Source: a virus | IMG/VR virus record: IMGVR_UViG_3300021963_004731 | Location: 1 to 28,476 of that record | DNA: 28,476 nucleotides | Strand: one strand, 5' to 3' | Shown here: in pieces, positions 2,236-28,476 of the stretch | How the letters are laid out: the number at the start of each line of letters is the position of its first letter | Numbering within the stretch: the stretch's first letter is position 1 | Made by a program: the position numbers and the translations under genes | The notes under the pieces: model-generated | What the model saw: the letters and a program-made list of their open reading frames with translations, nothing else | Told to the model about the DNA's origin: nothing | The model's database searches: none

Positions 2236-3239
2236 TGAGTATCAATGTTTCTGTCGGATTCCAGATTCCGACCAATGTTGTCGAGGTTGGTAACGAGATA
2301 AGCACCCAGCAGTTGGGTGCTATTACCAGCGGTTCTAGCCCTACATCGGCTAATCCGTTTACGACAGTCAGTTATATTACTGGCCTGTCCTATTTAACAA
2401 CCTCTGCGGCATCAACTACTTACGCACCAAAAGCCAGTCCTACCTTTACTGGTACTGTGACCATTCCTGCTGGTGCTTCTATCAGCGGTTATTTAACCAC
2501 ATCTTCTGCATCTAGCACTTACCAGACAATCTCTGGTATGACTTCATATTTGACCACATCTGCGGCTAGTAGCACATATCAGACAATCTCTGCTATGAGT
2601 TCATATTTGACGGATGCTCCTTCTGATGGCTCTGAGTATGTCCGTAAAAATGCGGCTTGGGCTGTTGCTACAGGTGGCGGTGGTGGTGGCATCTCTGATG
2701 CTCCTTCTGACGGCAATCTCTATGCCAGACAGAATGCGGCTTGGACTTCATTCACAGTTCCTACTCTTTCTGTTACCAACATAGACCTCACAGGTAATTT
2801 CAATGGTTACTCGATGGGTTCTGGGTTTTACTCATTCAAGTACGACTCTACGGCTAATACTCTGCGTATGCAGGATGGTTCTGGCTCTGGGATTACTATT
2901 TCTGCTACTGCTATAACATTCCCAAACTCAACAACACTTTCAACTGGTGCAAAGAGTGTTAATACAGTTACATCTAATTATAACCCTCAGTTATCTGATG
3001 CTAATAACATAGTGTTTTTAAATGGCGGTGGAACACCTATTTCCTTGCAAGTTCAAGATGATGGCACAGTTAATTTTCCAGTAGGTACTGTCATAATTGT
3101 TCTTTCTGATGATACTGCTAACGGAATCAATCAAGGTAGTGCTGGGGCTCCTTCTCTTAACGGAGGTTCTGGAGGTTCTTTACCAAATAGAGTCACTCAT
3201 CTAGTCAAGATTGGTGCTAACTCTTGGTACTATACATAA
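2235..3239 (+). CDS. Repeat-containing tail fibre protein
   Basis: A 334-residue fibre-like protein. Residues ~50-125 hold copies of the unit YLTTSAASSTYQTISGMTS, and two further copies of a second unit, DAPSDG-x2-Y-x-R-x-NAAW, follow at ~131-147 and ~155-172. Both types of unit are familiar from phage tail fibres. Between them is a six-glycine hinge. The C-terminal 90 residues (SNYNPQLSDANNIVFLNGG, then VNFPVGTVIIVL, ending W-Y-Y-T) are a compact beta domain of the kind that ends many phage appendages and probably contacts the host surface. No catalytic motif is seen. The gene overlaps its upstream neighbour by one base. Confidence 0.75.
   Translation: MSINVSVGFQIPTNVVEVGNEISTQQLGAITSGSSPTSANPFTTVSYITGLSYLTTSAASTTYAPKASPTFTGTVTIPAGASISGYLTTSSASSTYQTISGMTSYLTTSAASSTYQTISAMSSYLTDAPSDGSEYVRKNAAWAVATGGGGGGISDAPSDGNLYARQNAAWTSFTVPTLSVTNIDLTGNFNGYSMGSGFYSFKYDSTANTLRMQDGSGSGITISATAITFPNSTTLSTGAKSVNTVTSNYNPQLSDANNIVFLNGGGTPISLQVQDDGTVNFPVGTVIIVLSDDTANGINQGSAGAPSLNGGSGGSLPNRVTHLVKIGANSWYYT
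2388..2750 (+). repeat. In-frame tail-fibre repeats (two families)
   Basis: Copies of a ~57-bp unit encoding YLTTSAASSTY-type residues begin at about 2391 (divergent), 2490 and 2547, with a truncated fourth start at 2604. They run into two copies of a DAPSDG...NAAW unit near 2613 and 2697. Copies are more similar in protein than in DNA except for the adjacent pair at 2490 and 2547, consistent with recent unequal duplication. Confidence 0.75.
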
Positions 3240-3348: not shown

Positions 3349-5303
3349 TGCCAAACCTACAGCGTTCAGTTGATGGTGACGCTGGGTTTATAGGCATAGA
3401 TACTAGAGCAAATCCAGCGACTCTCAAGGAGGGTATACTTCAAGACGGAAGAAACATCCGCCTTGATTTGCAGACTTTACAGGTTCGCAAGGGCATCGAG
3501 CGTTTGCTCACTCCAGCGGATGCCACAAATGTAGGCAATGTCATAGGTGCTGGGGGATATGTTGATTCAAACGGAGTCGAAAAGATTGCGTTGGTTTCTT
3601 ATCATCCAAATGATGACCAGAACTATCTTACATTATTTGACCCTATTGCTGAATCTATAGGAACAAGATTCCCATTTCCTGCTGGAAGAAAGTCAATAAA
3701 CGGACCGATACAGGTATTACAAGCAAGCAATAAGTTGTATATACTTAGAGGAGAGGCTACTAAATACTTTGAAGCGGCAAGCCCAAGCACATCAGCAAAG
3801 GCTTATAATATCACATCCACAAGAATAGGCGTTAAGACGCTTCTTCCGCATGGTCTGGCTGTCGGGGATGAGTTCGTCATAGAGACACAGCATGCGGCTT
3901 GGTGCGGACCTACGCCATCAAGCAACTTTGTCGTAAGCACAGTACCATCATCTACTGAATTCACATATGTGCTTCCTTCCGCACACAATGGTGCTGACAG
4001 CGGATATGTCGTGCAGGTGGCAAAGCCAGTACTTGTTTTTGATGGGTCAAATCTAGACATAGTAAAGCAGGGGGTTATTGACGGAACTCAACTCGGAGGA
4101 ACTACTCCTACATCGTGCGATTTTCCTCCTACTAGCACAGCCATATATCACAAAAACAGAATATATTGCAAGTATAGCAAGGATGAAATAGCAGTTTCTG
4201 ACTATCTTCCAGATGCCAATGGCAACTGGGTTTTTGACTTAACCATACAAGCGTTGACAATAAACCAAGGAGATGAGCAAAACATCATAGGTTTTCACCC
4301 TTGGACTAGAGACGAAATTCTTGTCTTTAAAAGCAATAGCATATACTCGGCAAAGTTTGCAGACAATACTTCAACGCCAGACATAGTGTTGGCTGATTCG
4401 TATGTTAGGTCTTTGACATTCGACATAGGATGTCTCGCTAAGAACAGCATTGCCAATGTGTCTGGATATGTGTTCTTCCTGTCTAAGAGAGGGGTATATA
4501 GGCTTGAGCCGCAGTTGGATGCCAACCTGCTCGCAAACACGGCTCCTATGTCAACCCAGATACAGAAGTACATAGACAGAATTAACCAGACCTATGTTCA
4601 CAAGGCTGTAGCGACAGTTTACAATGGCAGGTATTACTTGGCAGTACCTCTTGACAACAACTTCTACAATAGCCATGTCCTTGTGTATAACTTGACAAAC
4701 CAGATGTGGGAGTCAGTTGATACATACCCAACCTCATTTAATGCTGATGGTATTGTCATTGCTAAGAGCGGCACTAATGGCACAGTCAATAGGATGATGT
4801 TCTGGACAAGGAACAATGGTATATATCTTTCTGAAGAAACAGAAAACGATGAGTATGGAGATATAACTTCTGCACCATCATTTGCTACTTATCCATATAT
4901 TCCTGCTTCTGTTGACAGTCCAGAAATACCAGAAGGTATACCATTGGACTTCTATCTTGAGCCAAGCGTGTATCAATACACGACAATAAGAGGATATGCC
5001 TTGACAAGAAGGTTCATGTTTAATACACTACAGGACAAGAGATTCACATCAATCTCGACAGACCTTGATTTTTCATCTGTTGGTGCTGTTCAGACATCTA
5101 TTAAAACATATAACCCAGATACGACATCTGTTCTTGATATAGCGTCAACAACATCAATGGAAGACAAGACTCGCATATTTCCTGTCAGAAAAATAGCGGT
5201 AGGTCTCGATGTAGAACTAACTACTCTTTCTGGAAGACCTATAATCAAGTCTGTTGTCGTAGAAGCAACTCAAATCGGAAGAACAACTAAAAACAAAGAT
5301 TAA
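3348..5303 (+). CDS. Putative tail nozzle / tail tube protein B-like
   Basis: A 651-residue protein. The N-terminus (GFIGIDTRANPATLKEGILQDGRNIRLD, then QVRKGIERLL) carries the pattern 'F-x-G-x-D...P-x-L-x3-G...N...R-x-G' common at the start of nozzle/stabilisation proteins of short-tailed phages. The remainder is beta-rich with repeated blade-like units (for example VYNGRYYLAVPL, then VLVYNLTNQMWESV, and RDEILVFKSNSIY), consistent with a propeller-type nozzle. These proteins close the tail and are the last portal for DNA before ejection. Length is in the range of such proteins. Gene order (adaptor, fibre, nozzle, fibre, internal proteins) supports the call. No peptidase or lyase motif seen. 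Confidence 0.65.
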   Translation: MPNLQRSVDGDAGFIGIDTRANPATLKEGILQDGRNIRLDLQTLQVRKGIERLLTPADATNVGNVIGAGGYVDSNGVEKIALVSYHPNDDQNYLTLFDPIAESIGTRFPFPAGRKSINGPIQVLQASNKLYILRGEATKYFEAASPSTSAKAYNITSTRIGVKTLLPHGLAVGDEFVIETQHAAWCGPTPSSNFVVSTVPSSTEFTYVLPSAHNGADSGYVVQVAKPVLVFDGSNLDIVKQGVIDGTQLGGTTPTSCDFPPTSTAIYHKNRIYCKYSKDEIAVSDYLPDANGNWVFDLTIQALTINQGDEQNIIGFHPWTRDEILVFKSNSIYSAKFADNTSTPDIVLADSYVRSLTFDIGCLAKNSIANVSGYVFFLSKRGVYRLEPQLDANLLANTAPMSTQIQKYIDRINQTYVHKAVATVYNGRYYLAVPLDNNFYNSHVLVYNLTNQMWESVDTYPTSFNADGIVIAKSGTNGTVNRMMFWTRNNGIYLSEETENDEYGDITSAPSFATYPYIPASVDSPEIPEGIPLDFYLEPSVYQYTTIRGYALTRRFMFNTLQDKRFTSISTDLDFSSVGAVQTSIKTYNPDTTSVLDIASTTSMEDKTRIFPVRKIAVGLDVELTTLSGRPIIKSVVVEATQIGRTTKNKD

Positions 5304-5305
5304 AA

Positions 5306-6247
5306 ATGCCACAAATATCAGCAGGATTTAATTATACATCCACAGGAGCAAACTCACTTGTTACTGCTGGAAACCTTAATCAACATGTCAACAACGCACA
5401 GTTACAGGGTGGTGCTATTGCTGAACAGACTTCTAACCCTACAACCGCAGACACAGACCTACTTTTGATTGGTAAGGCTGGAAGTCTTTTTAAGCAGACC
5501 AAGTTGCAGTTCACAAACACCATCAATTCTGACGAAATCAATGTTAATGACCTTTCCGTTGATACGGCACAAATAGATAATCTTATTCTTGCTCCTGTCG
5601 TTTCTGGAGTAGTACACCCAGTACTTGACACAAGAGGGACTAATTTTGTTGTTAGCGGTGCTTATCCTCAAATGAGATTTGGATATAGTGCTTATACTGG
5701 GGCTCCGCCTACTGGCTCAAGTTATTTGGATGATGTGTCATTTGCTACAAGAAATTTCTCAATTTATAATCCTGCGTATTCAACAAGTGGGAGAGCCACA
5801 CTTAGTGTTACAGGAAAGGTTGATATTATTAATTCTGCTGGCTCTACTACTGATGCTGAACTTAGCGTTGATGGAGACGCAACAATAGAAGGAGACCTTG
5901 TAGTAAATGGTTCGCTTACTGTCTTAGGCAATCCTGCTCCATCTCTCAAGGCAAGCGGCTCTTGGACTTGGGATGGCACAAACTTAGTCCAAAGAAGAAC
6001 ACCATTCAATTGCTCAATTACCCGACTTGGTGCTGGATACTACAAGATTACATTTACAACACCAATGCCAGATGCAGATTATGTTGTTTCAGCACTTACT
6101 GACCAATGGGGTGGTAATGCTGTAAATTCTGTTGGAACTATTGGAGTAAGAACAAGTGCCGATTTTTTTGTTCAAATACAATATAGAATATTCTCCAGTT
6201 CTGGCGGGTCATCCGATGGTAATGTAGACATTCTAGTTTTTCATTAA
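5306..6247 (+). CDS. Second tail fibre / appendage protein
   Basis: A 313-residue protein with a modular fibre layout. The N-terminus (SAGFNYTSTGANSLVTAGNLNQHV) probably attaches to the tail. Residues ~185-213 contain the triple-stranded fibre motif AELSVDGDATIEGDLVVNGS, in which short beta repeats stack. The C-terminal ~85 residues (RLGAGYYKITFTTPMPDADY...) match a small distal domain common in phage fibres, with the hallmark G-x-Y-x-I-x-F-T-T-P-M-P-D-A-D-Y. The last residues (GNVDILVFH) close the domain. It lies 2 bp after the nozzle gene; no Shine-Dalgarno sequence is visible, only an A-rich stretch before ATG. Confidence 0.75.
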   Translation: MPQISAGFNYTSTGANSLVTAGNLNQHVNNAQLQGGAIAEQTSNPTTADTDLLLIGKAGSLFKQTKLQFTNTINSDEINVNDLSVDTAQIDNLILAPVVSGVVHPVLDTRGTNFVVSGAYPQMRFGYSAYTGAPPTGSSYLDDVSFATRNFSIYNPAYSTSGRATLSVTGKVDIINSAGSTTDAELSVDGDATIEGDLVVNGSLTVLGNPAPSLKASGSWTWDGTNLVQRRTPFNCSITRLGAGYYKITFTTPMPDADYVVSALTDQWGGNAVNSVGTIGVRTSADFFVQIQYRIFSSSGGSSDGNVDILVFH

Positions 6248-9913: not shown

Positions 9914-12900
9914 ATGAATACAGATTCTCTTTACCTTTGGAACGCTCCAGAAGGTTCGGAAAACAAAGGGATTGAGGCTGTCAGAAACGACAGACTCGAT
10001 GAAATCCTTAACAAGCCTTTGACTGGTGATGACATAGCCTTGAAGGTTATGATGGCTCAGTCCGCTGGCGAGAACCCGAACTTGAGCATGGATGAGTTCA
10101 AGTTGTATGACGAATGGCATAAGAAACAGGTAGTCAACTGGTGGGAACTTGCCTCTGGTGGAGTAGGCACATTTTTTAGTGACATAGGTTCTGGTCTTGC
10201 GTCTCTCACTCCTTTTGGAACTGACAAGCAAGGCAAGGAGCGTACTATGGGTAGTGCGTTCTTAAACGCCACAACACGCCTTGGTCCTACGGCAACTGAG
10301 GCTCTTGGTCGAGGAACCAGAGATTTGGTTGGTCTTTACGAGGAAGCCAGCAAGAATCAGAATTCACCTCTGTACAACCTTTTCAATCCTAACGGAGATG
10401 TTTACAGCAGATTCGTTGATTTTCATAAACTTGCCGAATGGAGAGCGACATCACAGCGTATTCTTGAAGGTCGTGAGAATGTAGTTATGCCAAACACATC
10501 TGGCATGATTGGCAAAGATGTAAGCACATTATCACCAGAGGAACTGTTCAAGGTCAACAATGACTTGGCACAGGCAGGTTCGTATTTCTTAGACCCACCC
10601 GCTTTGATTACATTAGGTCAAAGCACATTCTTGAAGGCTGGTACTAAGACGGCATTGAGCGGTGTCATGGATGGGCTTGCTAAGGACGCATTAAAAGAAG
10701 GCATTAGCGGTACTGCTTCTGCGTTCAAGAATACTGCGGCACATCTTGATAAAGGAAAGATTTTTGGAGCGAGCCTTACCGAGAAACTTGGCAAGTCGTT
10801 CCGTGTCGCTGGCGAGGCTGTCGATAAGCCTATTAACTCCGTTATTAATTGGATTAAGACACAGGCAGACGAACTGCTTGATACCAATCTTCACACTACG
10901 CCAAACGCTAATCTGCGTATTACTGGACCGACAAAGGGACAGGCAGGTTTTGGTGGCTCTCTTATGGCTGGCTTGGGCATTGGTGCTATAGGTCTGCCTT
11001 ATGCGGCAAGCATAGTTCCCATCTGGGCTGTTGCTAACGCAGGTATCATCGGTGGCAAGTTCATAGAGCGACTGGGCGTTGAGATGGCTAATGGTGCTGG
11101 TGTTCTTGGACGCATGGGACTTGAGCAGACAAGCACAGGCAAACTTGCCAGAATGTTCTCCAAGTGGGGTCCGATGGGTGGCTATGTCGTTGATATGACA
11201 AAGGCTGTTGCCAAGTCTGGTGCTTACGGAGCCGCAATCGGATACCTAGCCAGCGGTGAGGAAGGTGCGGCACAGGGTCTTGGTGTTGGTTCAGCGATTG
11301 GAACAACTCACTATCACTTTGGCGTTGCTCACAATGTCATCAAGGGCAGGTCGAGGGACAAGATGGTTGCTGGTCTTATCAATAACATCAACGAACTCAG
11401 AAGCAACGGATTCACTCATAAGGCTGATACTGTTCTTAAATATCTGAGCGAAATACAGGCACAGCATGGTGACGATGGTTTCTTCAGAAACTTAGGCGTG
11501 TATCTTGCCGCTGAAGCAGACAGCCAAGTTGCCGTGTCATTCTGGGACAAGCAGGACTTCCTGCGTCTTAGGGATGACCCCACAGTTCCAGCCTCCGTTA
11601 AAGACGCTATCAATGAAGTAATCGGTGAAAATGGCGATGCTTGGAACGGATTGTTCATGGGACGCAACGGAAAGTCTGTCCCTTACTTTATTCACAAGGA
11701 TGGTCAGAGCGGAAAGACTCATATTATCATCAATACTTGGGCTAAGGATGTTGCTGGAAAGACCCAAGCGACTGGATTAAAGGGCGAGTTTTACCATGTG
11801 CTGGCTGACGCATATAAGGAAGCCGCAACCAAGCCACGCTTCATCGAGGAAATCTTTGAGGGCGTTGCCAGAACTCTGAACGGAAGCACCACGCCAGAGG
11901 GTCGTGCAAAGTTAGCACAGATGTTCAGAAATGCGGCTGACAACCTTTCGTTCTTTGGTAAGGATGCAAAGGCTCAGAAGGGCATGCCAAAGCGTGTCGC
12001 TAACCATCTCAAACTCACCAACGAGCAAGCACCCAAGGGCTGGGAAGTTGTCCATGTCGTTGGCAATGAGCGAGTCAATGTTGACGGATTTGAAAGACCT
12101 AGATACAGATGGATTGCAAGAGATGAGAGCGGAGCATATGCTGGATACGATATCTACGAGAACGCTAACGGAACATACCAGTTAAACAAGGATGGTAAGC
12201 CTGTGTCAAAGGACTTGCCATCGCTTGCTATGGCGATGAAGCAGTATCGTGAACTCACTTTTAAACCGAGTTACGAGCCTACACAGCAAGGAGAGCCGCC
12301 GCCCAATGTTTCTGGACAGAAGGAAAGAATTGTGCCAGAGCCAGAACAGCCAAAGCCTGTTGACCCAGAGTCAGTCGCTCCTACCAACGCTCAGAGAACC
12401 AACAGCGTCTATGAGGCTATCGACCTGTTTGAGAAAACTGGCAAGATTGACGGAGACAGATTCCATGTTCTTCTTGAGGAACTGGGCGAGTCTATCTTTG
12501 ACGCACATGAGGCTGAGATGCCGTTTGACTACATTTTCCTTGGCGGTGACTTAGGCTTTGCCAGAAACCTCATTGAAGAGGTCAAGCATAGATTTGCCAG
12601 AATCGTTGACAGAAACGGAAGACAGGCTGGATTCGTCCCAGACTTTGAAAAGCCGTTTGTCGATTGGTTCAAGGACATAGACGGCAAGGCTATCGTTGAC
12701 CCATACATGCGTAAACTGTTCAAGCAGTTCCTGCGTGTCCACAGGGAGCGTAGCATGAATCTTGATGGCTACACAGTAGACTTGTCAAAGATGTCTCCAG
12801 CGATGCTCAAGCAGTTTGTCGAGGACAACGGAATGGAGCATGAGTATGATGTCGATGACACTACTGGAAACTATGTCAGAAAGCCAGAAGAGCAGATTAA

Positions 12901-15900
12901 CGCTGAGATGCACAAGCGTTACCAGACGGCATCTTATGAACTGCTTGCGGCTGAGAAAAACGGCATAGCGACTGGATTCTTCTTCTACGCTTCCGAGGCT
13001 GATGCCCCGAGCCAAGGCTCTATGGACAGCCAGAACGAGGGCGGCATGCTCAAGCAGGAAGGCTGGAAGCAGTACAGAACTACCCAAGAGGACATCCTCA
13101 AGGCACAGAGAAAGGGTACGCTTCCTACCAAGGAAGAAATCGAGGCTCTTGTCAAACGCACAGGCGTATGGGGTAACAGAAACAGACCACGCACAGGCGA
13201 GATTGATGACCTTGTTGCCACAGCCAAGAAGGGCTCTATTATCTTCACAGGAATCCCAACTATTGAAGGATTCAAGATTCTCCAGAAGCACCTGCCAAAG
13301 AAGCAGATGGAGGCTATCGCCAAGATTGCTCCCTTAATCATGGATGGCGGAACCACAATGAACAATGTCACCAGAATCAAGTACGCTGGTTTTAGCCATG
13401 TTGATGATTCTGGAACTAAGTTGAAGCGTCCTAAGAATGAGTGGTCTGCCGTTGAGAAGAATATCGTGTTCTACGGCATGGAACTCAGAGCAACGCTCAG
13501 AAACCCAAAGAGCGGCAAGTTTGACTACAAGACTCCGCATGCCGCATTCCTTCTGCGTGGTGTCGATATCGATGTCCTGCAACGCAGAATCCAATGGATG
13601 TGGAAGAATGAGAAGGAGACCAGAAAGCGTTGGGATAACCTTGTCGATTTCGAGAAGGATGTCTATCGACTGGTGGAGAACTACTCAGCCAAGACAGCCA
13701 TTGGCGGCTCCAGATTCTTTGGTGGTGGTGACGAGGGTAAGGCTAAGAAGCGTCTTGCTTGTGCGGCTATCGGTGCTTTCCCGACAAGGAAGATGGTCGA
13801 GGGTCTTGATGCTGATGATGTCGAATTTGACCTGCCAGAAATCGACTGGCATCACTACCAGTTAAGTTCCTACGGCAAGGGCAAGAACGGCAGGGATATT
13901 CCTTGGACTAACATTCGTGCCGATGCCATCAGAACTGTGTTGGGTACTGATGACAAGATGCGTGTTCCTTATGCTGAAAGAGCATACTACAGAGCCCAAG
14001 AACTCTACCAGCAGAACAAGAAGACTGGTGTGAGAGAAGGCGAGGATGTCCCAGTCAATGTCAGAACAATCTCTCTTGATGTCTCTACCAACCCGCATAA
14101 ACAGAAATCTTTTGCTGGAGACCAGCCAGATATACTCTACAGAAATAGCACAAAACCGATGTCATTCTCTCCTTCAGACATTCTGAAAGAGATGCGTAGT
14201 GGGTCGGTAAAGATGGGTGCTAGAGCCGCACAGAACCTCAAGCAATTCGTCAAAGACAGCGTTGGGCATGACTCTGCCACGGACTCTGTGCTTGTCTACT
14301 GGCATGGCTATGTCAACGGAAAGCCGTTTGATGAAGTCAACATGGGGCAGTTTGGTCTTCACATCGGTACGCTTCAAGCGGCAATGAGCAGAAACTACAA
14401 GGTTGGTGATGCTAGAGGAATACCTAATGATGTCTCTTATAACAGCGTCATGCCTCTTGCTATCAACATCAAGAAGCCGTTGCAACTCGTAGATAGAGGG
14501 CTCTGGACTCCTCAGAATATCGCTGAGTCCATACTTGCATCAATTTCTCCAGACCAAAGAGACTCTGCTCATCCGAATGTCTTTGAGTCTTCCTCATCAA
14601 GAGCCAGAATAAAACAACAACTTGGCGAGATAAAGCCTTCAGATGTAGACTTCTTGACTCGTTTCATAGAGCGTCAGCGTCAACTTAAGTCTAAGAATCC
14701 AAACGCATACCAAGAAGCACAGATAGGTCTCCTTTCATCTGCTTCTCTTACTCCAGAATTCATAAGGCATTCCAAGGAAGTATACGCAGAGTCAAAAATT
14801 CTGCATGACTGGCTCAGAACAAAGGGCATAGACGCTATTTCGTACTATAACAGAACAGAGGGTAGTGCCTTGTCTTACATCATTTTTGATGGAAAGAACG
14901 CCAAGAACATCGCTGAGAATGTCGGTGAGTTCAGCCCAGATAGCATATCAATGCTCCGTCAACAGGCTTCCAGATACGGAGCCAAGTCAGCGGAACAGGC
15001 TAGGTCTCTTGAGAGCAACTACGAGGCGGCTATCAAGGAGGGCGATATCTTTGAGTCTATAGCCATCAAGAACAACTTCCTTGGAGATATGCCTCCTAAC
15101 ACTAGGATTGTCAGACAGACCGCTGAAGAGGCTGGCGTTCAAGGCGTGTCGTTAGACCAGTACAATGGTCAATTTGCAACAGGCACTCCGTTTGTGCTTC
15201 CGATGTTGCATGCCACAAAGAACAAAAGCGTTGCAAAGGGAGATTACAATCCTAACTTTGGTGTTGTTGGAAAAAGCGACATGTCTCACTTCAACTCCGT
15301 TTGGTGGGGCTCTCACATGGATGTTGCCAAGTACTTCAGAGATTTCCATGCCGCTAACAGCGGAAAAAACAAGGCTTATATTTCAAGAGCCCTTATAAAG
15401 TCAAAGAACCCTCTGGTTGTTGACGCAAAGGGTGAGTACTGGAACTCTAAGAAACTTAATATCAACAAGTGGCTTAACAAGGGAAGAACAGATGGTCACG
15501 ATTCTGTGATGTTCTTGAACATCTATGATGATGTCGAACAACCAAATAACAGACCTAATCTTCTTCTGCACAATCAAATCGTCCTGTTCCCAGAGTACGC
15601 CAACGATAGCGTTGCCGTGATTGATACCAACATGGATAGGCATCCAGTCCCCAGAGGACTGGGACTTGTCAACGAGGTTCCTATTGAACTTCCGTTCAGA
15701 CAAGAAGCGAATAAGTCTGGCAAGAGCAACGAGGAGGTCAAGCGTACTTTCTATTCCGCTGTCGAGAAGTTCGTGGAAGAGAAGGTCACGGACAAGACAT
15801 CGTTGCAGGAACTCATGGGTCTGCTTGACCCGACCAGAGGCACAGGAATCGTCAAGTCAGAACTTGAGTTCTTGGATATTGCTGGCTGGGTCGAGGAGCA

Positions 15901-18900
15901 GAAGAAACTTAATCCATCAAACAAAGCCAAGGTCAATAAGGCGGCTCTGCTTGAGTATATCAGAACGCACAAGTTTGAACTGCAAGAGGATAAGACCAAT
16001 AAGGCTTGGTACACCTTGCAAGGTCTTGACCCGAATAATCCTCAAGTTCAAAGCCAAGTCGAGGGTGGATATGAAAATTATACCCCAGCAAACAAGGGCT
16101 ACGATGAACTGCATCCTACCACAAACTATCGTGTGCTTATTCTTAGAGCCCCACAGGGAGAAGATTATGCTAGAGGTGCTGGAGGACATTTCCCAAATCC
16201 AGAAACCATCATAGCGTTTGCCAGAGTTGGTGATATTTATCTCGATAGGGAAACGGAGATGCCTTCACCTCTTCCAGAAGCACCCAAATTAGCAGAAAGA
16301 TTTGTACCAAAAGATTTTGATACTTCTCAAAATGCAATATCTGGAAAACAGCGGAAGAACTATACAAGTTTTGAATATAAATTAAAACTGTTTCTTAGGG
16401 AAAATCTTGGTACAACTGAAAAACTTTTTGAACAATTGCCACCAGAAATGCTTTATAGCATCATGGAAGCAAGAGCAAGATATACACATTCAGATGGAAC
16501 ACCAAGACTTAAGGAAGATGATTTAACTCAACTTGGGTTTGTTTTTGATTATCTTACCTCTGCAAGTCCAGAAAAAGCATTAAAAATTTTATATGGATAT
16601 AAATCAATCATAAATGACCACTTTCAAACAGGTGGAACATTTGCTTTTAAGTCAAAATGGAGACTTGAAACGATTGACAAGGATATTGCTATGATTGAAT
16701 CTCCAGATTTTGATAGTTTTGCTTTTGAGCATAAGTCAAATCTTTTTGCTATATTAAGAGATTTGGACGAAAGTCATATTGAAGCAGAAAATTCTTCTGG
16801 ATTTTATCAACCAGATGCTGAAAAGCGTAAACAGGGATTTATCAAATTTTTTGACCTGCTTAAGTCATTGATGGAGCCGTTGGATTTAGATGTGGTTGAG
16901 CAAACGAAATCCAGAAAGAAGATGTTAATGGTTTTTGAATCTCAGTCTGACACGGCTCAGAACATGCAAGCGAGGAATGACCAAAAACTTGAAAGTGTTT
17001 TGACTGAGGCTGATGTGGCAAGAAGAGATATTGTTCAGCAAGAACTTTCTGATTTAAGACATAAAGCCCATTTAGAACAATCAAGAAGACAAAGAGCAAG
17101 CGGAGACTGGGATAACCAATACACAATTGCCGAAATTCTTAGTCCAGAAGACTATGAACAGTTTAAGAAACTCAAAGAAGAGTTAAATAAATATTCTGGT
17201 GCTGAATATAAGAAAGTTATGTCCGAGAGGGAGTTTTTAAAGATTCCAGAAGTTAAAGCAGAGGTAGAAGCAAAAGAAAAACTTTTGGGGGCTTGGGATA
17301 AGTGGGAAAACTCAAGAGATGACCTAATGGATAGAGGTGACCTTGTTGACCAAAATCACAAGGAGGCTATCTTTAAAATTAAGGAAATGATTGGTGATGG
17401 AGATAAACTTAATGCAATAAATGATAGTATTCCTGGCGGTAAGGAAAAATTTATAGAAAATCTTGTTATTTTTATAGACAGAATGCTAAATGCACAAAAT
17501 GCAGGTAGTAAGGCTGATGCTAAAAGAATGACAGATAGATTGGCTGAGATAAAAGAATCAATTCTCAGAAGGGGGAATGTAACATTAGAAGAACTGACAG
17601 CAATTACTACAATTGACCAGTATGGAATGTTTATGACAGACCAATCAAGACTTCCATATTATGATTATCAATATTTCAGAGGACTTTTGAGTGAAAGACA
17701 CACAAAAAGTTATGAAACGGATGAAGCAATAAATAACATAGGAAATTCTCTTAGGAAACAAATATCAGATGCATTAAATGGTGAATTATACGACTACACT
17801 ATAACAGCACAAGGAATGTTTAAAACAGACGATTTCAGCAAAAGAAATCTGTATAGGATAATAGACGAAAAGGTTGACCAATGGCTTGGCACTATGGATG
17901 GTAATGTTACTGGAATGTCGGATATTGCCACAAAGGTGTGGCAACTTTGGGCTGATTATGCATTGAAAGACAAAAATAGCATAGCCTATACGCAATTTAG
18001 AGAAGCAGTTCTTAGAGATACTGTTAAGAAAATTGACCGCTATAAAGGTGCTATTCCATCAAAGAGTGAAGCAAGAATGGCATTACTTAGGAAGTTGGCA
18101 TCTAGTCGTGATACTGTTGTGACTGAATACATGCCATTCCTCCGCACAGAGGATTTCTCGAAACTCATGTTCAAGAAGTTGCTGAAGGAGATGGTCGATG
18201 GTGACTACGAGGGCATCATCATCATCCCACCAGAACTGCCTCAGAAAATTACTGGCGGTGACTCTAAGTATTACTACGGCACGATTCTTCCCAAGGTTAT
18301 AAACAACTACACCAAGAAGTTCGGTGCTAAACTTAGAGAGAACAAAAGTCTTCAGTCACCACTACTAAGTAATGGTGATGTTGCAAGCATGCTTAATATT
18401 GTTAGATACGGATTAAATGGAATAAGAAAGACCACAGGAAAAAACATGTTTGAGGCTATGAATGCTCTTCAAGACATGGCAAGAACTGTTTTGAGTCTTG
18501 ATATGGAGAACATGTCTTCTGACTTGTATAAAGAAATGCACGAAAAAGTCTCAAGTAAACTTGCTTCAGATGGGGGAATGCCAATAACTGCTGGCAGACA
18601 ATTACTTGATTTCGGAATTAATTCTATAAGAGGAACATTGCCAGAAGGTTACAAGTTAATACAGTACGATTTTAATACTAACGATTGGGAAATTCCTTCA
18701 TATGGTGTAGGTAATTTAGAAAAACAAGCCTCCCGCAAAGGTCTTATCCTTGATAGAACTCCTCAGATGGATGCCATCAAGGAAGGTCAACCGCTGTGGC
18801 AAGCGGCGGCTCGCAGGAAGAAAAAGGGTACTGTCGAACAGCCAGAGACTGTCGGTGACCTGCAAGGCAAGACTCCTGCTCAAGAAGAGCCTGTTGTTCC

Positions 18901-20779
18901 TATTGATGTTACTGGAAGGAACATCAGCGACATCTCGCAGGTTGTCGGACTCAAGAGCAACAAGGACAGAGAACTGCTTGATGTCGAAAAGGCTGTCCTC
19001 AAGGATGGTGCTGGAACCTATCGTGGATACAAGATTGTATACGACAAGGCTAACGGAGGGTACAAGATATTCAATCCTGCTGGCAAGGCTGTCGGTGTTC
19101 CTGTGGCATATATCGATAGGGTTACAGGAGAGAAGGTCATCAAGACCGAAAAGCATGTCATCTTTGTCGAGGAAGGCGTTGACTTGATTGACTCCGTTCT
19201 TGGCGGAATGCCAAAGACCGAGGAGCAGAAGTCTATTCCAGAGGCGGCAAAGCCAGCAAAGGTCAATAATCCAGCCAAGCAACAGGTCGTTGCTCCAGAG
19301 CAGAGAGCCATCCCAGTCCAAGACCAGAATGCGGACAAGAACGCTGTCGAGGCTCAAGTCAAGGCTGGCAAGATGGCTGACTACTACGGCATATTCAAAG
19401 TCGGGTTCGACCCTAAGATGGGTAAGTACTTTGCCTTGGACAATGGCGGTCAGCAAGTCCAGATGCTTGTCCCGAGTCCGTTCCAGAGCGGTCCTAGAAC
19501 CCTTAGTGGTCAGTACCACCCAGACCTCGCCTCTGTTCTTCAGCAACTTGACAAGAAGTTCGACAAGACCAAGTATGCTAACAGGGCTCCATCGGCAACC
19601 TACGGACAGGCACAATCGGCTCCTATGGCTCCTATGGCGGCTCCTGTTCAAGCGGAAGCACCCAAGCCAGCACCAAGGCGTGTCGAGGCTTCTAGCGTCC
19701 CTCCAGCGGTTGCAAAGGCTACGCCAGCACCTAAGCCAAAGGTCACACCGCAGACTGCTCCGAAACCAAAAGCGTCAATACCGAGCAAGCCTACTCCTGC
19801 GGCTAACGAGCCAGAGGTTGTCATGCCTAAGCCACAGCCTGTCGCTCCTACGGCAAAGCCTGTTGCTCCTGTCGCTCAGACTGTTGACCCGACTGCACCT
19901 GCGGTTGTCACACCAGACATTGAAGACTTGAAGAGCAGAGCCAAGTCGCTTGGCAAGGGCTTCATCGAGATGCTTAGGGATAAGGAGATGAGACAGTACA
20001 TCATCGACTCCCTCAACATGGACGATGACCTTACCCTTGTCGGAACCACGGAAGATGCCAGCACAGCGGACGGCAGATTCTCAGTCACCAAGAAGGGTCG
20101 CAAGTTGGAGGTTGTCCAGAACAACTACACCTCGCCAATCACAGGTATCGTGTACGACAAGCGACCAATCGCCTATGTCAACACCATCGAACAGGCTCAG
20201 TTGCTTATCCGCAGAATCGAACTTGAGCGTAGCATGGCTATAAGGGCTAAGAACATGTCACCAGAGAATGGTCTGGCTATCCTTGCTCAGCAGAACCCTG
20301 CTTATGTCGAGATTGCTAGGGAGAAGGCTATCAAGGATAACGCCTTGATTCAGATGCTCCTGTCGATGCGTGACCAGAACATCATCCCAATCTACATCGA
20401 CCCAGAAACATTACAGCCTCTGTTGGTGATGATGCCTAGCGAACCAGCCATCTCTATGGTCACAAGACCTAAGAAGAGCGTCCAGATTGCTGGGCTTCTT
20501 CCAGAAAGCGGTGCGGCTGGAGACCCAATGCCGCTGGCTCTGATTGACAAGGCGATAACATTCAACATGTTTGAGGACGCTGAAATCAGAGGTCTTGACT
20601 ATAACACCAAGAATGTGGCTACCAGATTCCGCAACGCTCTTGGCTATGAGATACTGAAGTTCAAGGGCAAGTTCAGATTGTTCAACCCGATGAGGTCGGC
20701 AATCTCAGTCAGAGACGATGAGGAGGCTGTCATCAACGACATCATCGCAGACATCCATAGAAACGGACTTCAGCAATGA
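9914..20779 (+). CDS. Giant polyvalent virion protein with ART-like domains
   Basis: A 3,621-residue protein, over a third of the window. Read in order: hydrophobic Gly/Ala segments at ~346-385 and ~421-470 (possible membrane insertion); a region around residues 625-632 (EFYHVLAD) resembling a degenerate HExxH peptidase-like polyvalent domain; an unassigned conserved-looking region ~880-1380; a first ART-PolyVal-like domain from H1464 (WHGYVNG) to ~1680 (SYIIFDGKNAKNI); a second from H1766 (LHATKNK) to ~1900; and a large polyvalent-protein domain from ~1983 to 2966 with GGHFPN, ESQSD (2342-2346) and LDRTPQM...PLWQ, split by AT-rich insertions. Small beta modules and P/A-rich linkers form the C-terminus. 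I infer a protein ejected with DNA to modify or protect against host factors. No N4-type RNA polymerase motif was found. Confidence 0.7.
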   Translation: MNTDSLYLWNAPEGSENKGIEAVRNDRLDEILNKPLTGDDIALKVMMAQSAGENPNLSMDEFKLYDEWHKKQVVNWWELASGGVGTFFSDIGSGLASLTPFGTDKQGKERTMGSAFLNATTRLGPTATEALGRGTRDLVGLYEEASKNQNSPLYNLFNPNGDVYSRFVDFHKLAEWRATSQRILEGRENVVMPNTSGMIGKDVSTLSPEELFKVNNDLAQAGSYFLDPPALITLGQSTFLKAGTKTALSGVMDGLAKDALKEGISGTASAFKNTAAHLDKGKIFGASLTEKLGKSFRVAGEAVDKPINSVINWIKTQADELLDTNLHTTPNANLRITGPTKGQAGFGGSLMAGLGIGAIGLPYAASIVPIWAVANAGIIGGKFIERLGVEMANGAGVLGRMGLEQTSTGKLARMFSKWGPMGGYVVDMTKAVAKSGAYGAAIGYLASGEEGAAQGLGVGSAIGTTHYHFGVAHNVIKGRSRDKMVAGLINNINELRSNGFTHKADTVLKYLSEIQAQHGDDGFFRNLGVYLAAEADSQVAVSFWDKQDFLRLRDDPTVPASVKDAINEVIGENGDAWNGLFMGRNGKSVPYFIHKDGQSGKTHIIINTWAKDVAGKTQATGLKGEFYHVLADAYKEAATKPRFIEEIFEGVARTLNGSTTPEGRAKLAQMFRNAADNLSFFGKDAKAQKGMPKRVANHLKLTNEQAPKGWEVVHVVGNERVNVDGFERPRYRWIARDESGAYAGYDIYENANGTYQLNKDGKPVSKDLPSLAMAMKQYRELTFKPSYEPTQQGEPPPNVSGQKERIVPEPEQPKPVDPESVAPTNAQRTNSVYEAIDLFEKTGKIDGDRFHVLLEELGESIFDAHEAEMPFDYIFLGGDLGFARNLIEEVKHRFARIVDRNGRQAGFVPDFEKPFVDWFKDIDGKAIVDPYMRKLFKQFLRVHRERSMNLDGYTVDLSKMSPAMLKQFVEDNGMEHEYDVDDTTGNYVRKPEEQINAEMHKRYQTASYELLAAEKNGIATGFFFYASEADAPSQGSMDSQNEGGMLKQEGWKQYRTTQEDILKAQRKGTLPTKEEIEALVKRTGVWGNRNRPRTGEIDDLVATAKKGSIIFTGIPTIEGFKILQKHLPKKQMEAIAKIAPLIMDGGTTMNNVTRIKYAGFSHVDDSGTKLKRPKNEWSAVEKNIVFYGMELRATLRNPKSGKFDYKTPHAAFLLRGVDIDVLQRRIQWMWKNEKETRKRWDNLVDFEKDVYRLVENYSAKTAIGGSRFFGGGDEGKAKKRLACAAIGAFPTRKMVEGLDADDVEFDLPEIDWHHYQLSSYGKGKNGRDIPWTNIRADAIRTVLGTDDKMRVPYAERAYYRAQELYQQNKKTGVREGEDVPVNVRTISLDVSTNPHKQKSFAGDQPDILYRNSTKPMSFSPSDILKEMRSGSVKMGARAAQNLKQFVKDSVGHDSATDSVLVYWHGYVNGKPFDEVNMGQFGLHIGTLQAAMSRNYKVGDARGIPNDVSYNSVMPLAINIKKPLQLVDRGLWTPQNIAESILASISPDQRDSAHPNVFESSSSRARIKQQLGEIKPSDVDFLTRFIERQRQLKSKNPNAYQEAQIGLLSSASLTPEFIRHSKEVYAESKILHDWLRTKGIDAISYYNRTEGSALSYIIFDGKNAKNIAENVGEFSPDSISMLRQQASRYGAKSAEQARSLESNYEAAIKEGDIFESIAIKNNFLGDMPPNTRIVRQTAEEAGVQGVSLDQYNGQFATGTPFVLPMLHATKNKSVAKGDYNPNFGVVGKSDMSHFNSVWWGSHMDVAKYFRDFHAANSGKNKAYISRALIKSKNPLVVDAKGEYWNSKKLNINKWLNKGRTDGHDSVMFLNIYDDVEQPNNRPNLLLHNQIVLFPEYANDSVAVIDTNMDRHPVPRGLGLVNEVPIELPFRQEANKSGKSNEEVKRTFYSAVEKFVEEKVTDKTSLQELMGLLDPTRGTGIVKSELEFLDIAGWVEEQKKLNPSNKAKVNKAALLEYIRTHKFELQEDKTNKAWYTLQGLDPNNPQVQSQVEGGYENYTPANKGYDELHPTTNYRVLILRAPQGEDYARGAGGHFPNPETIIAFARVGDIYLDRETEMPSPLPEAPKLAERFVPKDFDTSQNAISGKQRKNYTSFEYKLKLFLRENLGTTEKLFEQLPPEMLYSIMEARARYTHSDGTPRLKEDDLTQLGFVFDYLTSASPEKALKILYGYKSIINDHFQTGGTFAFKSKWRLETIDKDIAMIESPDFDSFAFEHKSNLFAILRDLDESHIEAENSSGFYQPDAEKRKQGFIKFFDLLKSLMEPLDLDVVEQTKSRKKMLMVFESQSDTAQNMQARNDQKLESVLTEADVARRDIVQQELSDLRHKAHLEQSRRQRASGDWDNQYTIAEILSPEDYEQFKKLKEELNKYSGAEYKKVMSEREFLKIPEVKAEVEAKEKLLGAWDKWENSRDDLMDRGDLVDQNHKEAIFKIKEMIGDGDKLNAINDSIPGGKEKFIENLVIFIDRMLNAQNAGSKADAKRMTDRLAEIKESILRRGNVTLEELTAITTIDQYGMFMTDQSRLPYYDYQYFRGLLSERHTKSYETDEAINNIGNSLRKQISDALNGELYDYTITAQGMFKTDDFSKRNLYRIIDEKVDQWLGTMDGNVTGMSDIATKVWQLWADYALKDKNSIAYTQFREAVLRDTVKKIDRYKGAIPSKSEARMALLRKLASSRDTVVTEYMPFLRTEDFSKLMFKKLLKEMVDGDYEGIIIIPPELPQKITGGDSKYYYGTILPKVINNYTKKFGAKLRENKSLQSPLLSNGDVASMLNIVRYGLNGIRKTTGKNMFEAMNALQDMARTVLSLDMENMSSDLYKEMHEKVSSKLASDGGMPITAGRQLLDFGINSIRGTLPEGYKLIQYDFNTNDWEIPSYGVGNLEKQASRKGLILDRTPQMDAIKEGQPLWQAAARRKKKGTVEQPETVGDLQGKTPAQEEPVVPIDVTGRNISDISQVVGLKSNKDRELLDVEKAVLKDGAGTYRGYKIVYDKANGGYKIFNPAGKAVGVPVAYIDRVTGEKVIKTEKHVIFVEEGVDLIDSVLGGMPKTEEQKSIPEAAKPAKVNNPAKQQVVAPEQRAIPVQDQNADKNAVEAQVKAGKMADYYGIFKVGFDPKMGKYFALDNGGQQVQMLVPSPFQSGPRTLSGQYHPDLASVLQQLDKKFDKTKYANRAPSATYGQAQSAPMAPMAAPVQAEAPKPAPRRVEASSVPPAVAKATPAPKPKVTPQTAPKPKASIPSKPTPAANEPEVVMPKPQPVAPTAKPVAPVAQTVDPTAPAVVTPDIEDLKSRAKSLGKGFIEMLRDKEMRQYIIDSLNMDDDLTLVGTTEDASTADGRFSVTKKGRKLEVVQNNYTSPITGIVYDKRPIAYVNTIEQAQLLIRRIELERSMAIRAKNMSPENGLAILAQQNPAYVEIAREKAIKDNALIQMLLSMRDQNIIPIYIDPETLQPLLVMMPSEPAISMVTRPKKSVQIAGLLPESGAAGDPMPLALIDKAITFNMFEDAEIRGLDYNTKNVATRFRNALGYEILKFKGKFRLFNPMRSAISVRDDEEAVINDIIADIHRNGLQQ
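16250..18115 (+). other. AT-rich insertion region within the giant gene
   Basis: Base composition changes abruptly near 16250 (many aaa, ttt, gaa, att codons) and returns to the gene's usual GC-richer, C-ending codons near 18115. The encoded stretch is highly charged and helical (for example SEREFLKIPEVKAEVEAKEK). It falls inside the polyvalent domain: GGHFPNPETIIAFARVGD lies before it, the ESQSD motif (~16937) sits inside it, and PFLRTEDFSKLMFKK lies after it. A second shorter AT-rich block runs from ~18340 to ~18725. The reading frame is kept throughout, so it is an accepted insertion or replacement rather than decay. Confidence 0.6.
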
Positions 20780-22860: not shown

Positions 22861-23104
22861 GATTCTTGGGATTGAATTCGATGTTGTAATCAATCCAAGT
22901 GATGGCTGAGTTTTCATCCCAGTCATTGGCAAGCATGAACGCCAGCACAAGCCTGTCGTAATTGTACTGTACGCAACCACGGCTATGAATCTTTTTATCT
23001 ATAGCCCAGTCAAGGTACTCCCTAGGCTCCAGCATGAAGCACCCTTCATACTTGGAGTCGTTGTCCTTGATTTCCTCGTCAGTCAGTTTTCTTGCTGTTA
23101 GCAT
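22814..23104 (-). CDS. Small early protein of unknown function
   Basis: A 96-residue protein, last gene of the minus-strand cluster. I chose the ATG at 23104 (upstream AAAGAAGA may serve as a ribosome site) over an upstream TTG at 23173, which would overlap the preceding gene by 95 bp. Acidic C-terminus (REPVDDDD). Central part LDWAIDKKIHSRGCVQYNYD and FMLANDW are distinctive but I recognise no family. Stop lies inside the convergent lipoprotein gene. Confidence 0.6.
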   Translation of the reverse strand: MLTARKLTDEEIKDNDSKYEGCFMLEPREYLDWAIDKKIHSRGCVQYNYDRLVLAFMLANDWDENSAITWIDYNIEFNPKNPKMPVIYREPVDDDD

Positions 23105-26674: not shown

Positions 26675-27358
26675 TCAAGCAGTAATACCAACGAAATAAT
26701 CTCTGAGCCTACGGACAAAGGCAACGCCAGTCTCCTTGCTGTTGAACCTCTCGACCAGCGTATCGCCTGTGTAGTTGGTGGTGATGATGGTTGTACGCAG
26801 ACCAGAGGTACGCTCATCCATGATGGCGAACAAATCGGTCTCCAGTCTGGGCGTAAGCCGCTCCTTGCCCAAATCGTCAAGAACAACGACCTTGGCGGAA
26901 ATCAAAGCGTCAATAACCTTGGAGTGCTTCTTCTCATCAAAGCCTTCCGCAATCTTGGCTTCAAACTTACGCATCTGCAAGAACATGCTATCGGTATGGT
27001 TGTCGAGCCAGAGTTTATTATAAAGCCACCAAGCCGCCCTGCTCTTGCCCAGACCAGTCTGCCCATGCAGGATGACCCCACACTTGCCATCGACAGGAGC
27101 CCAAGCCTTTACCTTACGCATAAAGTCATTGAACTCCATGTCGGTGTTGCGGAAGGCCAACGGCATCTCGGGGTGAATATTGTCACCCACCCACTCGACA
27201 TTCATCTGCTTGAACACTTCCCTGTAGTTATGGGGAGGCTTTAGAGCCCACTCGGTCTCGTAGCACTTCCTGCAAAGAACCATGTCCAAGAACCGCCCAG
27301 TATCCTTGCTGTAGACAGGACTGCCGATTTGACTGCAATGGTGGCACTTAGAAGCCAT
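26675..27358 (-). CDS. DnaC-type replicative helicase loader with zinc-binding N-terminus
   Basis: A 227-residue AAA+ ATPase. Walker A is GQTGLGKS (99-106), Walker B VVVLDD (157-162), sensor 1 TTNY (193-196), and an arginine cluster RRLR (216-219) is in the place of the sensor-2/box VII region. The N-terminus has C5-x2-C8 and C29-x2-C32, a likely zinc site, as seen in some phage and plasmid loaders. It would load the host replicative helicase at the origin, together with the initiator encoded immediately upstream. I chose ATG 27358 because AAGGAGGA lies 7-8 bases upstream; a longer frame exists but is a shadow of the initiator gene. It overlaps the initiator gene by 11 bp. Confidence 0.82.
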   Translation of the reverse strand: MASKCHHCSQIGSPVYSKDTGRFLDMVLCRKCYETEWALKPPHNYREVFKQMNVEWVGDNIHPEMPLAFRNTDMEFNDFMRKVKAWAPVDGKCGVILHGQTGLGKSRAAWWLYNKLWLDNHTDSMFLQMRKFEAKIAEGFDEKKHSKVIDALISAKVVVLDDLGKERLTPRLETDLFAIMDERTSGLRTTIITTNYTGDTLVERFNSKETGVAFVRRLRDYFVGITA

Positions 27359-28013
27359 TGGAATGTTCCTCCTTGGTGGTGACATGCTTGACAGCCTTGC
27401 AAGCCGTCTGAGCGGGAAATAGACCAAGCCATCCGTTACGCATGGACTGGGCAATGGTGTCGATTGCATCCTTCTCGCTGAGTGCGGTCATGTCCTTGAG
27501 TTGAAGAATGATGGTTGTCTTTGTCAAAGGCTTTCGCTTTTCCTTTCGGTAAGCCTCCCAGCATAGCCATGCTTTCTTGAATTCAACCCCATGAGGAAGA
27601 ACATAATCCACCTCGCCCTTTGTATCTTCTCTATTCTTCTTATCCTTCTCTTGTATATATGTAGCCGATTTTTCGGCTAGGGGGTAGCCGATTTTCTGGC
27701 TGGGGGTAGCCGATTTTCTGGCTCCCCCCTTCATGGACTCGGAACCACAGGTACGCAACACCCTTGTCTCCCCGATATTCTCGATTCTAATCACGAATCC
27801 AGAATCAACCAATGAGGATAGATGCTCCTTGACTGTGGACTCGGAGATGTCGCAAGCCTCAGCAAGATATGCGTTGCTGGCGTAGCAACCATCGTTGCCA
27901 TCCAGACATTGGATGACACCATACAACAGTTTAGCCATAGGACTAATCTGGGCATTGAAGACCTCTCTGGGGATGTAAACACCCCCAAAGGTCACGGCAG
28001 GTTTCTGCTTCAT
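27348..28013 (-). CDS. Replication initiator / replisome organiser (lambda O-like layout)
   Basis: A 221-residue protein. Residues ~26-80 form a winged-helix DNA-binding domain (YASNAYLAEACDISESTVKE followed by HLSSLVDSGFV). A charged linker spans ~90-135. The C-terminal ~60 residues (FKKAWLCWEAYRKEKRKPLT, then SEKDAIDTIAQSM, NGWLGLFP) form the kind of domain found at the end of phage replisome organisers. The gene lies directly upstream of a DnaC-type loader, the same order as O and P in lambda-like phages. The linker is encoded by the iteron array, so the origin probably lies inside this gene. ATG 28013 follows the nuclease stop by 3 bases. Confidence 0.75.
   Translation of the reverse strand: MKQKPAVTFGGVYIPREVFNAQISPMAKLLYGVIQCLDGNDGCYASNAYLAEACDISESTVKEHLSSLVDSGFVIRIENIGETRVLRTCGSESMKGGARKSATPSQKIGYPLAEKSATYIQEKDKKNREDTKGEVDYVLPHGVEFKKAWLCWEAYRKEKRKPLTKTTIILQLKDMTALSEKDAIDTIAQSMRNGWLGLFPAQTACKAVKHVTTKEEHSNGF
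27605..27725. other. Candidate replication origin inside the initiator gene
   Basis: Three iterons at 27662-27723 are followed, in the sense of the initiator gene, by an AT-rich stretch of ~45 bases (27616-27661) that is almost all purine on the coding strand (for example AGAGAAGGATAAGAAGAATA), a likely unwinding element. Initiator gene, iterons in its linker, adjacent purine-biased AT-rich segment and loader gene next door are the four elements of the lambda origin. Confidence 0.6.
27662..27723. repeat. Three iterons, two of them exact tandem 22-mers
   Basis: Plus-strand core TAGCCGATTTTCTGGCT at 27685-27701 and 27707-27723, each preceded by GGGGG, makes two identical abutting 22-bp units (27680-27701 and 27702-27723). 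A third, at 27662-27679, is the perfect inverted repeat TAGCCGA-TTTT-TCGGCTA. Starts are 23 and 22 bp apart, so each copy is read in a different codon phase. Confidence 0.85.
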
Positions 28014-28016
28014 CGC

Positions 28017-28476
28017 TTAGATGTCGATGGTGGTAATCTTGTCCTCGTAGGAAGGCCACATGTCGTGGTCGATGCACATCTGCATGTTGGCGAGATTGAT
28101 GTTCAGCAACTCCATCTGACGCTTCAAGGTCTTCTCGGAGATTTCAAACGCACGAACACCATGAGGGGCTTCCTTCTCGACAAAGATGAAGATGAATCTG
28201 AATCCATCGAATCCGTTGTGAGCCAGCAAGGTGAGATACATAGCCGCTTGCAGGTGATACATGTTGTCATCGATGACATTCTTAACCGAATACATGTTCT
28301 TGAGACAGGCGTTGGTGGTCTTGAGGTCGAACACGCACTTATCATCCCAGTTCACCCAGTCCAACTTGCCCTTAATCTTGATGTCCTTGAACGGCAGGAC
28401 ATCGGAGAACACGGCAACTTCAGCGTCACCATTGTTGCAACCTTGGTAGAAGGTCGAGTGGCTACGCACAGCCTCA
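28017..28476 (-). CDS. PD-(D/E)XK nuclease, RecE/RecB type (5' end outside window)
   Basis: The frame has no stop up to the right edge (upstream codons read E-A-V-R-S-H-S-T-F), so this is the C-terminal ~153 residues; the GTG at 28469 is internal or at most an alternative start. Active-site elements: IKGKLDWV (Asp), VFDLKTT (the D-x-K core), and HLQAAMYL, which fits the Q-x3-Y helix of this nuclease group. These are the hallmarks of RecE- or lambda-exonuclease-like enzymes that resect DNA ends. It pairs naturally with the ERF annealing protein a few genes away. Downstream lies the initiator gene, 3 bases after its stop. Confidence 0.78.
   Translation of the reverse strand, partial: EAVRSHSTFYQGCNNGDAEVAVFSDVLPFKDIKIKGKLDWVNWDDKCVFDLKTTNACLKNMYSVKNVIDDNMYHLQAAMYLTLLAHNGFDGFRFIFIFVEKEAPHGVRAFEISEKTLKRQMELLNINLANMQMCIDHDMWPSYEDKITTIDI

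Follow-up and report, generated by a model that had tools for sequence, protein, structure and literature searches.

The replication initiator gene and its surroundings

The window analyzed here, which is the entire IMG/VR record of 28,476 bp, carries on its minus strand a replication initiator gene adjoined by a helicase-loader gene, with three iterons and an AT-rich tract inside the initiator gene (Table 1). The initiator scores 42.1 bits against the HTH_36 domain (PF13730), for which the curated cut-off is 25, and also matches phrog_678, a family annotated as O-like in replication initiation. The loader matches IstB_IS21 of Pfam and phrog_50, the DnaC-like helicase loaders, and its real start may be an inner ATG near position 27358. 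An exonuclease VIII-like gene is located upstream of the initiator gene, and an Erf recombinase gene lies further on, beyond the loader. No helicase gene was seen in the window; the record ends nearby.

Table 1. Features of the initiator locus, in window coordinates
Feature	Position	Strand	Evidence or detail
Replication initiator gene, 221 aa, HTH_36/O-like	27348..28013	minus	Pfam HTH_36, 7.6e-11; phrog_678, 2.3e-19
DNA-binding winged helix, about residues 10-90, with the recognition helix at 58-71	27744..27986	minus	AlphaFold2, pLDDT about 74-90
Iteron 1 (gene order), AGCCAGAAAATCGGCT	27708..27723	minus	
Iteron 2, AGCCAGAAAATCGGCT	27686..27701	minus	22 bp from iteron 1; shifted codon phase
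Iteron 3, AGCCGAAAAATCGGCT	27663..27678	minus	23 bp from iteron 2
Candidate DNA unwinding element (AT-rich tract with purine bias)	27617..27661	minus	69% AT
DnaC/IstB-like AAA+ helicase-loader gene	26675..27469	minus	IstB_IS21, 1.3e-6; phrog_50, 7.8e-19

In the AlphaFold2 model of the initiator, the winged-helix domain is followed by a linker predicted to be disordered (residues 95-131), which is encoded by the iterons and the AT-rich tract, and by a C-terminal helical domain (residues 143-193). Foldseek ranked the plasmid RepA initiators 4pt7, 4pql and 5kbj at the top of its matches to this model, with MarR regulators mixed among the RepA initiators, the best E value being a weak 0.006. A C-terminal tail conserved throughout the family, T..[DE]H.NGF (for example at 27351-27380 of the window, minus strand), lies outside the folded domain and is possibly a docking motif for the loader or the helicase.

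The AT-rich tract, which flanks the iterons, has the highest AT content of any 45 bp in the interval 26675-28476, and its purine bias is among the strongest in the window. The winged-helix initiator with repeats in its linker, the purine-biased AT-rich tract abutting those repeats, and the neighboring helicase loader, all of which an initial annotation had read from the letters of the DNA, agree with the domain matches, the structural model and the base composition. The same annotation had proposed an SU10-like capsid, which was not borne out: PHROG gives a major head protein, and a PDB sequence search returned no match. Elsewhere in the window, an open reading frame of 3621 aa (9914-20779, plus strand) is without a PHROG family match over its first 1695 residues. 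Cumulative GC skew over the window gave no clear signal either way.

Iterons within the coding sequence

The iteron word, AGCC(AG/GA)AAAATCGGCT, is dyad-symmetric and occurs in three copies in the linker-encoding part of the initiator gene, in an array situated about 290 bp into the gene. Iterons 1 and 2 with their spacer form an exact 22-bp repeat, and the 7+4+7 dyad found in iteron 3, TAGCCGA-AAAA-TCGGCTA, is perfect. The coordinates and letters of the repeat first reported, with steps of 22 and then 23 bp, were confirmed. The peptides read from the three copies (ARKSATP, SQKIGYP and AEKSATY) are likewise as reported, and the shifted phases amount to two: iterons 1 and 3, at a distance of 45 bp, are read in one phase, and iteron 2 is shifted.

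The direct repeats exceed the level forced by the protein. When the protein was held fixed and its codons were redrawn from the window's own usage, none of 3000 synonymous recodings reached the observed repeat strength of 50/54 matches, the maximum of this null being 38/54. A search for the same word elsewhere, suggested by the initial annotation, found no further copy of the strict pattern with up to three mismatches in the 28,476-bp window. A weak iteron-like site, AGCAAGAAAACTGACT, two mismatches from a looser pattern, lies at 23081-23096 of the window (minus strand), and the record L002 (contig IMGVR_UViG_3300008261_002536) has a similar site at 5873-5888.

Conservation among close relatives

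In a count over seven related records, each has exactly three good copies, in a cluster. Six related records, with initiator identities of 95%, 75%, about 60% and 57%, have their three good copies at the 22/23-bp spacing, and outside the arrays these records contain stray sites with two mismatches only. No relatives were found in a scan of genome contigs. Where residues are unchanged between relatives, 15-19 codons of the iteron segment are kept and none or one is changed, whereas elsewhere in the initiator unchanged residues keep their codon in roughly half to two thirds of cases in most pairs (Fisher p 0.0001-0.01 in eight of nine pairs and 0.05 in the closest pair). Because the codons of the iteron segment are almost frozen while many synonymous codons differ elsewhere, selection on the DNA is indicated.

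The prediction that related phages would conserve the iterons and let the linker peptide vary is only half right, as close relatives keep the peptide too. The expected contrast between conserved iterons and a freely varying linker peptide is absent among them for this reason; in distant relatives the word and the peptide both change, and what is kept is the copy number and the spacing, not the DNA word. In L002 the initiator gene (788-1319) has a 131-bp frame-breaking deletion that starts directly after the iterons and the AT-rich tract and is either a true deletion or an assembly error.

Survey of distant homologues

A survey that drew on viral contigs as well as isolated phages gathered 131 initiator genes. 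They fall into 51 clusters at 80% identity, the majority of which have three intragenic iterons about 22-23 bp apart, in many different words that include GGAAGAAAACTTCC, GGCAAAAAATTGCC, TGCAAAAAAATGCA, TGAAATTAATTTCA, CTAATCAAAATGATTA and GACAAAAATGTC. The best three-copy repeat beats all 60 synonymous-codon shuffles in 39 of the 51 clusters; the other clusters tie with the null or fall inside it, some being without a clear array. Arrays were scored in 42 clusters, with a threshold of 32/42, a level that the null of some genes also reaches in its upper tail. The spacing is 22/23 bp in 20 of these arrays, the word is read in at least two codon phases in 37, and the tract after the iterons is more AT-rich than the gene in all 42 (mean 67% versus 51%). 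Fifteen genes of isolated phages were inspected, three of them also in the survey: 11 beat all shuffles, two tie, and two are without an array. A cultivated relative, the Pseudomonas fluorescens SBW25 phage Skulduggery (L170), has its initiator gene at 1483-2247 and the DnaC loader gene at 2244-3197.

The homologue L003, at 36% identity, has another word, GAAAAATATTTC; its copies sit in the same linker and are again spaced by 22 and 23 bp. By sequence comparison, the layout is retained among relatives of the window initiator and the DNA word changes. In L003 the AT-rich tract that comes after the iterons contains two direct repeats, ATAGATACTARTAT (4590-4618), and similar tracts of the AATAATACAAGTATTAATA type are present after the iterons of several phages of Gram-positive hosts (LLC-1, LJ and R29.1).

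In the 23 clusters whose dyads could be aligned, distances in the half-site and in the recognition helix are correlated when the rest of the protein is controlled for (partial r 0.34, permutation p 0.0005); helices 1 and 2 gave no signal in the same clusters. In a sliding-window control, windows starting at residues 50-54 were the strongest or nearly so across three data subsets, giving the top signal in two, and with the window's own clade left out, helix 1 windows scored equal to the recognition region. This covariation is supportive and falls short of proof, because the clusters share an ancestry that the test does not fully remove. A simple residue-to-base code, in which Gln at residue 62 would correspond to TG half-sites and Arg to GG, seemed to hold by eye within the survey but failed in LJ and R29.1, and the claim is therefore limited to statistical covariation. 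Two arrays mix half-sites, GGCAA with GGAAG in L053 and GTGAAG with GGGAAG in L061; such mixtures are expected if a word changes by single half-sites, and these arrays are possibly intermediates in a change of iteron word.

We tentatively suggest, at somewhat less than even odds, that an old intragenic origin of fixed geometry, with three iterons at 22 and then 23 bp in the linker, is common to the phage HTH_36 initiators, and that its word co-evolves with the recognition helix by single half-sites, without change of spacing or copy number. If this is true, the family would offer a series of naturally co-evolved pairs of initiator and origin, and both a recognition code and orthogonal phage replicons could be derived from it. 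The surveyed pairs share one geometry and have different words, so that joint change of initiator and site is directly testable.

A candidate origin inside the gene of its initiator

The interpretation that we favor, with a probability of about 0.85, is that a theta-type replication origin of the phage is embedded in the initiator gene. We infer that the 221-aa protein would use its winged-helix domain to bind each of the three dyad iterons, probably as a dimer; that the nucleoprotein complex would bend the DNA and melt the adjacent AT-rich purine tract; and that the C-terminal helical domain would recruit the product of the next gene, the DnaC/IstB-type AAA+ loader, which would put the replicative helicase of the host or of the phage onto the opened strand for use of the origin. 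Iterons would be tolerated in a coding sequence because the disordered linker that they encode accepts almost any peptide. The phage thus very probably carries replication-start sites inside the gene of their own putative binding protein, and the functional reading of the initial annotation, an intragenic origin working like lambda O/ori/P, is well supported. The record is a fragment, so the phage genome may have a second origin elsewhere. A candidate origin is hereby located for an otherwise uncharacterised environmental phage, and the survey suggests that, across this large family of phage proteins, reading the initiator gene directly may be enough to find the origin, including in fragments from metagenomes.

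The repeat, its dyads and spacing, the conservation at the DNA level, the homologous arrays and the domain layout were established by computation, and readings other than an origin were weighed against them. The repeats could be operators to which the initiator binds for autoregulation or copy control, and the protein-DNA covariation would fit any binding role, this one included; we nevertheless consider it unlikely and favor an origin because the array lies about 290 bp within the gene, because the AT-rich tract is constant on its 3' side (42 of 42 arrays), and because the known intragenic origins of SPP1, lambda and pSK41 have a like layout. An action in mRNA, as hairpins controlling translation or stability, is very unlikely: although RNA folding of the segment is strong in four relatives (z -5.1 to -6.8), dyad repeats of any kind fold in this way, mismatches in the arms have no excess of G-U (17, versus 24 A-C), half-site and HTH vary together, and some words in the survey are very rich in AT.

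Selection on the linker peptide, with the DNA repeat merely following, would account for the conservation of the peptide in close relatives, such as L006, which keeps 19 of 21 residues. However, the synonymous codons are frozen too, the copies do not share a single phase in 37 of the 42 scored clusters, the linker is predicted to be disordered, and distant relatives have entirely different linkers with the same spacing. Codon conservation and phase shifts rule out selection at the peptide level alone, leaving this reading highly improbable. A recent functionless tandem duplication, which the identity of copies 1 and 2 over 22 bp might suggest, is scarcely credible when the geometry is kept in relatives at 57-75% identity and, with different words, down to 36%.

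Comparison with known systems

Intragenic origins are known from lambda and some plasmids; the type of initiator found here is, as far as its sequence indicates, unrelated to lambda O. In lambda, the iterons are dyads within gene O; the O protein binds them as dimers and opens the AT-rich region beside them (PMC5043065). The two systems are alike in having dyad iterons in the initiator gene, an AT-rich tract 3' of the iterons and a loader gene next to them, lambda having four iterons and the window array three. In a computed control, the lambda iterons are spaced by 20/24/23 bp, occur in three codon phases and are accompanied by an AT tract of 76%; phase-shifted reading of the word is therefore not new in itself. 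The window initiator has no match to PF04492 (Phage_rep_O) at E 0.1 and an hhalign probability of 0.2%, whereas lambda O itself, as a positive control, matches PF04492 at 5.7e-36; and the window loader is not of the lambda P type but AAA+ and IstB/DnaC-like. The term lambda-like, as first applied to this locus, is thus apt for the architecture and not for descent. The window initiator is better placed, on the strength of its domain match and array, among the HTH_36/O-like phage initiators with a putative intragenic iteron origin.

The closest precedents are SPP1 gene 38/oriL, the pSK41 RepA plasmids and plasmid pPR9. In SPP1, gp38 acts on oriL within gene 38, and gp39 is the loader (PMC6316719). 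By its description this system is similar, with direct repeats that the initiator binds in its own gene and an AT-rich unwinding element followed by the loader gene, but it differs in possessing a helicase gene (gene 40) and, in oriR, another origin. In plasmid pSK41, Rep boxes are located centrally in rep, and the linker encoded there is dispensable (PMC5703833). The pSK41/RepA_N initiators (4pt7, 4pql, 5kbj) resemble the window initiator in their winged helix, in an origin inside the rep gene and in ranking at the top of the Foldseek matches; they differ in belonging to Pfam RepA_N and match its fold only weakly, and RepA_N (PF06970) is absent among the Pfam matches of the window initiator at E 0.1. 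Their C-terminal domain contacts the DnaG primase, and their copy number is regulated by antisense RNA.

For plasmid pPR9, which supports autonomous replication, the Rep N-terminal domain is reported to contain an HTH of PF13730 with a relative among phage replication proteins (PMC5703833); the segment that was swapped spans the N-terminal domain and the origin, and the mini-replicon replicates autonomously (PMC5703833). Unlike the window initiator, pPR9 Rep belongs to a plasmid, and its C-terminal domain is of the pSK41 type. With an HTH of the same family, PF13730, pPR9 is the nearest experimental precedent found.
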